Assembly: GCF_003574135.1 (NCBI RefSeq)
Contig: NZ_AP018341.1
Location: 1,674,001 to 1,738,000 of the forward strand
DNA: 64,000 nt
Source of the DNA: a cyanobacterium endosymbiont of Rhopalodia gibberula
GTDB taxonomy: Bacteria > Cyanobacteriota > Cyanobacteriia > Cyanobacteriales > Microcystaceae
Direction: 5' to 3'
The position numbers were made by a program, and so were the translations under genes. A model generated the notes under the pieces. That model saw nothing but the letters and a program-made list of their open reading frames with translations. It was not told where the DNA came from and did no database searches. Shown piece after piece: positions 30,348 to 36,133 of the stretch (position 1 is its first letter; the number at the start of each line of letters is the position of its first letter).

Positions 30348-31706
30348 ATGAAACTTAAATCCTTCATTCAAAATACCTCAGATTGGTTCTTAGCAATCCC
30401 TGAAAAATCATTAAGCAGCGCCTATAAATCTGCTTTGAAAATCAAAGAGATTGAAAATAAACATTTTGGAGGAAAAAAAGTATCTGTTGAAAATTCTAAC
30501 TATGGAACAAGCATTCTTACTTATTTCGAAACAGAAGTTAATGGCTATTTACAAAAGATAAACACGGGATTAGCTTTTTTTAAAGCTAGCCGTTTTTTTT
30601 TAAAAATATCTGATTTACAAGATAAACAACCCCATTTAAGAGATCAACGAGATCACCAGGATCAAGAGACAAACACTTCTATTATTTTTGATAAGCTTGA
30701 GTTTATTGATGAAGTAACAAATCACTATCAAACTCCTAATCTTAATCCAGAAGTAGAGTCTGAGAATAAAAGACTAACTTCTGGAGAAAAAATAAACAAA
30801 AATCAGCTAAGTTCTACAAATAATGAAAACTTCAGTGAATTTAGAAATGCTTCCATTAGCCGGAAAAAAAATAATGACAATTCTAACTTAGCCTCTGCTT
30901 CAAAAAAGACTGGGGTACTTCCGAGATCTTTTATTAATACCCTCAACCGAATTAAACAGGAAATTGATCCTAAATCAGGAGAAACTGAAGAAGAGGTTTT
31001 AGTTAAGTACCGTAAATCTCGCTACCGAACTGCTTTATCAATTAAGTTTATTTTGTTGTTGATTATTGTTCCTTTACTTACCCATCAATTAACTAAAACT
31101 TTTTTTTTAACACCTATTGTTGAGAGATATTTTACAAGTCATGAACAAGTAATTTTTATTAATAGAGATTTAGAGGAAGAAGCATTAAGTGAATTACAAC
31201 ATTACGAAGAAACTTTAAGATTTAGGGGACTGATTGGATTAGGACCAGAATTTACCCCCGAAAAAATTAGGGAGGAAATTAAACATAAAGCCGAAGAAAT
31301 AACCGATGAATATCGACATCATGGAATTGATTCTATTGCCAATATATTTGCAGATATTTTCTCTTTTGTCTCTTTTTTTGTAGTCATAGTAACTAGTAAA
31401 AAAGAAATAGAAGTGGTTAAATCTTTTCTTGATGAAATCCTTTATGGTTTAAGTGATCCAGCTAAAGCTTTTTTGATTATTCTCTTTACCGATATGTTTG
31501 TGGGGTTTCACTCTCCCCACGGATGGGAAGTAATTTTACAAGGAGTTTCTCGTCACTTTGGACTCCCAGAAAATCAAGAGTTTAATTTCCTATTTATTGC
31601 GACCTTTCCTGTAATATTAGATACGGTTTTGAAGTATTGGATCTTCCGTTATCTTAATCGTATATCACCTTCTGCGGTAGCGACTTATAAAAATATGAAT
31701 GAATAG
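30348..31706 (+). CDS. pxcA: Proton extrusion protein PxcA (CemA family)
   Basis: PxcA is an inner-membrane protein needed for light-induced proton extrusion in cyanobacteria; its plastid relative is CemA. The 452-residue protein has a long polar N-terminal half (1-225) with the family start KLKSFIQNTSDWFLAIPEKS. The C-terminal CemA domain (about 230-450) has hydrophobic segments at about 228-248, 330-348, 375-395 and 415-435, and includes FHSPHGWEVIL. Length is normal and the frame intact. A hairpin (31734-31764) follows the stop. Its retention in a lineage losing chlorophyll synthesis is surprising. Confidence 0.9.
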   Translation: MKLKSFIQNTSDWFLAIPEKSLSSAYKSALKIKEIENKHFGGKKVSVENSNYGTSILTYFETEVNGYLQKINTGLAFFKASRFFLKISDLQDKQPHLRDQRDHQDQETNTSIIFDKLEFIDEVTNHYQTPNLNPEVESENKRLTSGEKINKNQLSSTNNENFSEFRNASISRKKNNDNSNLASASKKTGVLPRSFINTLNRIKQEIDPKSGETEEEVLVKYRKSRYRTALSIKFILLLIIVPLLTHQLTKTFFLTPIVERYFTSHEQVIFINRDLEEEALSELQHYEETLRFRGLIGLGPEFTPEKIREEIKHKAEEITDEYRHHGIDSIANIFADIFSFVSFFVVIVTSKKEIEVVKSFLDEILYGLSDPAKAFLIILFTDMFVGFHSPHGWEVILQGVSRHFGLPENQEFNFLFIATFPVILDTVLKYWIFRYLNRISPSAVATYKNMNE

Positions 31707-34943: not shown

Positions 34944-36133
34944 TCAATTCTTTGGCAATATCAATTGCCAAAGAATTGGCTTAGCGAATTCGGGAACATG
35001 CTAAGGTAATTTGCGGGGATAGTTGCGTTTCATATAAAGATAATTACGGGTGAAATGGGAGTCTATAGAAAAGCGGGCATACTCTAATCCTTTGGGAGCA
35101 ATTTTTTCTACAATTATCCTTATTAACTTTGCTGCCCACATGGACAGAGTAACTTCTTGATCATAGGCAAAAATACTTTTTTGTACTGTCTGTTTTCTAT
35201 CCCCCTTAGCAATTAGGGCTTTAGTATCTAGTTAGTTTTTGAGTAACCCTAACATTTATTGTCCAGTTTCATTGCGAACGGTAATCCATTGCCAACCGAA
35301 TCCCGCCCCCATATAGTCGACCACTAAATCGGCTAAAACATTAACATAATCAAAACAACTCATGCAGGAAGTAACAAAAACATCTTTCAGTTTATTGGTT
35401 TTTAAGCCCCAAAAATCTACTTTTTCAATTGACCCATCTTGGTGTTTAAAATAAATACAAAAGTACCGCATAAATTCATGATCAACAATGATTTTAGGAG
35501 ATCTACTCGTGGTCTTAATGAACTTTCGTAATCCGTCACGGGTTACATTGCCAACACAAGTAGTCCCCAAAACATAAAGCTTTTCCAAAGACAATTTTCT
35601 TTGTACAGCTCGTAATGCTTGAATTTGACAACTAACTCCAATTACTAATAATAATTCTATTCCTGATTGTTGAATTTGTTCCAAAATGGAAAGATTTGGG
35701 GATAAGGTGAATTTATTCATCCTAGCGGCTAAAATTTCTTCTTTCGTCCTAGCAATCACAGGCATGAGTTGAAAATGGTCTTCTATGATATTCTGAACAC
35801 AGACAACCCCCTCTACCCATCCTTGGGTTAACATTTCACTAGCAAACTAACAATACCCGTCCATTGTGCTCCCTCAATAGGCTGTTTTTTCCGCACTTCT
35901 GTCATACTTTGATAAACTCCAAAACACAGGTCATTTTCGTCATTTAAATTACGACTGCGACCATGAGCTATCTCTTCGAGTTTGCTGATTTGTCGATTAA
36001 GAAAGGCGCAAGCTTCTTTACCATGGTGGACGTAGTGAGTATCGCATAATCCACGCTCACTACAGAGTTCTTTGTCCGGACGGTTACTTCTTAGTTTGAG
36101 AGCTTTGGCTTTACTTTGGGGAGTAATGGACAT
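34944..36133 (-). pseudogene. bciB: Broken 8-vinyl reductase gene of chlorophyll synthesis
   Basis: BciB is the ferredoxin-dependent 3,8-divinyl (proto)chlorophyllide 8-vinyl reductase (FrhB/HCAR family, about 400 residues). The minus strand still reads its N-terminal part (AKALKLRSNRPDKELCSERG, about residues 7-26; PIEGAQWTGIVS) to about 35828. A frameshift follows, then the middle from 35834 (EGVVCVQN, FGLKTNKLKDVF, SCMSCFDYVN), ending at a stop at 35256. The tail persists in pieces (KGLEYARFSIDSHFTRNYLY), with a TAG before HVPEFAKP and a stop at 34944. A cysteine expected in CSECGLCDT, as I recall the family, is Arg here (CSERGLCDT). The gene cannot give an active enzyme. Confidence 0.9.
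34945..34978. terminator. Hairpin at the 3' end of the bciB pseudogene
   Basis: A perfect 15-bp stem (34945-34959 with 34964-34978) has the loop ATCA. It overlaps the last dozen codons of the decayed bciB, so the hairpin is partly made of former coding sequence. Confidence 0.6.

Follow-up and report, generated by a model that had tools for sequence, protein, structure and literature searches.

A bciB pseudogene in the spheroid body of the diatom Rhopalodia gibberula was reported by Nakayama and Inagaki in 2017 (PMC5638926); the pseudogene is therefore already known, and it is nothing unusual in an endosymbiont whose genome is being reduced. The same study detected no functional gene of PSI or PSII in this genome (PMC5638926). 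A study of 2026 in BMC Genomics described the rhopalodian endosymbionts as lacking BciB, Lpor and ChlP, with the remaining pathway retained in RgSB, EcSB and EpSB (PMC12903740). Two [4Fe-4S] clusters were reported for BciB (PMC13297055), and a working enzyme would reduce the C8-vinyl group of divinyl chlorophyllide with reduced ferredoxin, the two [4Fe-4S] clusters and FAD.

The bciB locus of the R. gibberula spheroid body

The chromosome of the R. gibberula spheroid body (RgSB), a nitrogen-fixing diatom symbiont, consisted of one 3,020,309 bp contig, as tabulated in PMC5638926 and PMC11131595. The window was a stretch of 64,000 nucleotides of this contig, and the positions given below for the bciB locus are those of the window. 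Four spheroid-body genomes were compared: RgSB, that of Epithemia turgida (EtSB, G003), G001, which was taken for the E. clementina symbiont and kept its chl genes, and G004, which was taken for the E. pelagica symbiont (PMC11167328). The nearest free-living relative, G002, served as the reference with intact bciB, and a second free-living genome, G006, matched Rippkaea orientalis PCC 8801; the names of these relatives rest on genome features and not on a comparison of accessions. In a tree of 23 concatenated genes, RgSB and EtSB were sisters with 100% bootstrap. The features of the locus were as follows.

34944..36133, minus strand: bciB pseudogene (ferredoxin-dependent 3,8-divinyl chlorophyllide 8-vinyl reductase), from alignment, Pfam and a PDB match
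36133-36131, minus strand: start codon ATG of bciB
36053..36055, minus strand: Cys28 changed to Arg (CGT) in CSERGLCDT; Cys in G001, G002, G003, G006 and 5DQR
between 35845 and 35846, minus strand: frameshifting deletion of 4 bases at codon 98, from alignment with G001, G002, G003, G004 and G006
35256..35258, minus strand: in-frame TAA at codon 295, private to RgSB
35232..35234, minus strand: in-frame TAA at codon 303, common to RgSB and EtSB (G003)
35001..35003, minus strand: in-frame TAG at codon 380, private to RgSB
34946-34944, minus strand: terminal codon TGA of bciB

The earlier note, made from the letters of the window, had placed a dead bciB at 34944-36133, and the ATG, the TGA, the frameshift and the three stops agreed with that description. 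The frameshift which it put near 35828 was real but lies upstream in the gene, at the codon-98 deletion, and 35828 is close to where the resulting frame ends. This deletion was private to RgSB among the genomes compared. With one frameshift and three stops, an open frame of about 398 codons was absent.

Comparison with the intact bciB of G002 (398 codons) gave 74.7% amino-acid identity over 396 aligned codons. The read-through protein, with X at the stops, matched the Pfam domains FrhB_FdhB_N and FrhB_FdhB_C, and its closest PDB chain was 5DQR, 7-hydroxymethyl chlorophyll a reductase (HCAR), with a phmmer E of about 1e-107, which excludes a chance match. The RgSB copy thus had the domains of the BciB family and full-length similarity to cyanobacterial BciB/HCAR; judged from its sequence, it is a pseudogene of this family and not an active member. 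Eight cysteines were common to intact BciB and 5DQR, of which the RgSB copy kept seven. The missing one, Cys28, is the Cys-to-Arg change pointed out in the earlier note, and among the bciB copies that still had the stretch CSECGLCDT it was altered in RgSB alone. Cys28 would be an Fe-S ligand, considering the conserved set of eight cysteines and the two [4Fe-4S] clusters of BciB (PMC13297055). An Rfam scan around bciB returned a tRNA and nothing else, and a scan of genome contigs with the read-through protein matched only four loci, all from distant cyanobacteria (Rhizonema, Scytonema) and none from symbionts.

The bciB gene was intact in all free-living relatives tested and broken in all four spheroid-body genomes, mostly by private lesions. 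This pattern supports the earlier proposal that bciB was probably lost within the history of the symbiosis. Decay had gone much further in G004 than in RgSB. Dating of the loss by shared stops was dropped, since the patterns were mutually conflicting (codon 303 in RgSB and EtSB; codons 177 and 280 in G001 and EtSB; codon 55 in G001 and G004); because of this conflict and the AT-rich genome, shared stops are weak evidence.

Chlorophyll genes and selection

The genes chlH, chlI, chlD, chlM, chlE (acsF), chlL, chlN, chlB and chlG were open in RgSB, and the intact chlL adjoined chlN. ChlH was assigned to the 1329-aa gene at 687924-691286. A 1257-aa CobN/Mg-chelatase match was rejected as ChlH on length and is CobN; both assignments follow the usual protein sizes of ChlH and CobN. 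The same nine chl genes were open in G001 and G004, where chlP and bciB were dead as in RgSB. In EtSB the chl genes sought were broken, except chlB and chlD, which were undetected. The symbionts of R. gibba and E. adnata are likewise reported to lack most or even all chl genes.

The survey of pathway genes proposed in the earlier note gave a divided result, with chlG open and chlP and LPOR dead. In RgSB chlP was fragmented, and it was dead in 4 of 4 spheroid bodies. The LPOR relic, and an intact LPOR of G004, were located as follows.

G000:C1:1666922-1667869: LPOR pseudogene broken by eight stops, lying some 6 kb ahead of the window
G004:C1:2180233-2181177: intact LPOR of 320 aa with a YKDSK motif, dN/dS 0.13 against G002

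Like bciB, the LPOR pseudogene of RgSB could be traced along its whole length. Dead chlP and dead LPOR are stronger marks than bciB of an inability to make normal chlorophyll a. A CP43/CP47-type PSII gene was present in RgSB as fragments with many stops, and, together with the published absence of functional PSI and PSII genes (PMC5638926), this remnant bore out the loss of photosystem genes.

In ChlG of RgSB, residues that are conserved elsewhere had changed (EGDRQ to EGDHQ and YFLRDPL to HFLKAPL); this step may be lost next. An intact gene of the CemA/PxcA family (452 aa, PF03040, window 30348-31706) was kept in this symbiont without photosystems; in cyanobacteria the family is tied to light-induced proton extrusion. 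In G013, a UCYN-A-like genome of 1.4 Mb, ChlP, ChlG, ChlM, ChlH, two AcsF and the DPOR subunits ChlN and ChlB were present; BciB was unmatched, LPOR was absent, and for ChlI there was no match above the cut-off and only one at the level of ChlD. If G013 makes chlorophyll for photosystem I, it may obtain the 8-vinyl reductase and ChlI from its host, or may use divinyl chlorophyll.

Pairwise dN/dS was estimated by maximum likelihood under a codon model, with a GY94-type script of our own, for bciB, the nine chl genes and 82 controls. The controls came from the window and from segments, none longer than about 20 kb, around chl and nif genes; they include conserved nif genes and are not genome-wide. 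For bciB, dN/dS was 0.67 between RgSB and G001 (2dlnL 3.6) and 0.87 between RgSB and EtSB (2dlnL 0.5), and neither value rejected 1. Along the RgSB branch it was about 0.82. The RgSB-G001 test was borderline and allows an early functional phase within the interval. The dN/dS and the lesions showed that bciB of RgSB has evolved near-neutrally since about the separation of the three freshwater spheroid-body lineages compared.

Between RgSB and G001, the nine chl genes had dN/dS of 0.10-0.39, and each rejected 1 (2dlnL 17.5-296). Their median did not differ from that of the 82 controls (0.118 vs 0.147, p=0.8). On the RgSB branch their dN was slightly above that of the controls (0.026 vs 0.019), without significance (p=0.11). 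The least constrained were chlG (0.34) and chlM (0.40), which had the highest dN/dS on the RgSB branch among the chl genes. ChlG was nevertheless under selection in RgSB, G001 and G004 (2dlnL 17.5-66). Across 4543 chl codons, 0 disabling lesions were observed against 34 expected at the private rate of bciB; with this rate at its lower 95% bound, 7 would be expected. The nine Mg-branch genes were thus shown to be constrained in RgSB and in two related symbionts without BciB and ChlP.

Since these nine genes are kept intact by selection, bciB is not a marker of the loss of the whole pathway. The claim that dead bciB marks the loss of chlorophyll synthesis is accordingly not supported: intact chlorophyll genes, which the earlier note itself had named as contrary evidence, were found elsewhere in the genome. 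Bulk accumulation of divinyl chlorophyll is unlikely, because the spheroid bodies of related Epithemia gave no chlorophyll fluorescence (PMC11070190, PMC8831587). We put at about 0.8 the probability that bciB is a pseudogene and that selection on it has become uncoupled from selection on the chl genes. As RgSB and EtSB are sisters, the same span of time was long enough to wreck the chl genes in EtSB; those of RgSB remained constrained and free of lesions, which argues that the pathway was kept despite the loss of BciB and ChlP. That nine chl genes stay constrained while bciB drifts almost neutrally, in a cell that has no photosystems, suggests a continuing need for some chlorin.

Possible reasons for retention of the pathway

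The reason that we prefer, ahead of regulation by chlorophyllide and then of passive decay, is supply of cytochrome b6f. Once the photosystems were lost, bciB would have become dispensable, and the pathway would most likely still run at a low level. Without BciB and ChlP its product would be 8-vinyl chlorophyllide or, via ChlG, geranylgeranyl 8-vinyl chlorophyll, as the order of the pathway implies. The evolution of PetD suggests that chlorophyll would be supplied to cytochrome b6f, kept for respiration. The complex holds one chlorophyll per monomer. Chlorophyll a is its specific cofactor (PMC12112970). We propose only tentatively, at less than even odds, that spheroid bodies keep the chl pathway minus BciB and ChlP for the chlorophyll of b6f, and that the chlorophyll site has degenerated in EtSB.

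Both petB and petD were open in 4 of 4 spheroid bodies. Private changes in PetD numbered 11 in EtSB and 0 in RgSB, and the rate in EtSB was above all 57 control genes. PetD was conserved where the chl genes persist, with dN/dS of 0.011 between RgSB and G004. PetB of EtSB was not accelerated (18th percentile). The changes in EtSB PetD included G136A and T137I (locus L192), at positions with Gly-Thr in all other genomes compared and in the aligned PetD chains of solved b6f; the chance of hitting both residues within 11 random changes was 0.004, for residues picked after they had been seen. Five of the 11 changes were in the N-terminal segment, residues 9-19. We take G136 and T137 to be the residues that keep in place the water which ligates the Mg of the chlorophyll in b6f crystal structures; in the papers covered by a literature check, nothing was found on them as a chlorophyll site. 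A text search of PMC12903740 found cytochrome b6f unmentioned. EtSB retains petB and petD without the chl pathway, so b6f apparently can do without its own chlorophyll. If b6f is the user, the debated role of its chlorophyll can be tested directly by comparing the spheroid bodies; the sister lineage EtSB may then have lost both the pigment and its binding site, a natural experiment on b6f chlorophyll.

A rather unlikely alternative, next in order, is that chlorophyllide a or a precursor signals tetrapyrrole flux via the chlorophyll-binding domains of Scp or HemH type (PMC12903740). The presence of Scp or of an extended HemH roughly tracks chl retention (PMC12903740), and the position of ChlG among the least constrained steps fits an unesterified product. 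However, ChlG was selected in all three symbionts that keep the pathway, although it would be superfluous if the pathway ended at chlorophyllide. All that RgSB has, moreover, is a dissimilar HemH tail, and no single partner of Scp type is common to the three symbionts (PMC12903740).

Passive decay, the reading of 2017, would make bciB the first visible casualty of a useless pathway whose other chl genes are to follow as in EtSB. EtSB does lack these genes (also PMC5638926), a raised chl dN was reported in 2017, and chlG and chlM were relaxed on the RgSB branch. Decay is nonetheless improbable, as a dN/dS of 1 was rejected for 9 of 9 chl genes across the same span of evolution that left bciB seemingly neutral, and lesions were absent from codons in which about 34 were expected. 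G001 and the more distant G004 also have these genes open and under constraint; in G004 bciB is far more decayed, so the pathway there has long survived the death of bciB. The possibility that an intact bciB had been misassembled or misread was rejected, and its probability is negligible, given four independent disabling lesions in addition to the Cys-to-Arg change, near-neutral dN/dS, and orthologues that were also dead, mostly by other lesions, in the three other spheroid-body genomes, each sequenced independently.

Comparison with described systems

The finding of 2026 that Lpor is missing from the rhopalodian endosymbionts (PMC12903740) differs from the intact LPOR of G004 found here, and the two disagree if G004 is EpSB. 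The chl dN of RgSB was reported as significantly raised in PMC5638926, and the genes were read as already dead; here the direction was equal and the difference was not significant. Nakayama and Inagaki (PMC5638926) concluded that constraint on the pathway was relaxed and that it was probably dead, whereas the selection test here parts near-neutral bciB from constrained chl genes. The locus resembles Synechocystis Slr1923/BciB through the intact bciB of free-living relatives (62-74% identical), the FrhB_FdhB domains and the eight cysteines as in 5DQR. Unlike Slr1923/BciB, the RgSB copy is broken and lacks Cys28.
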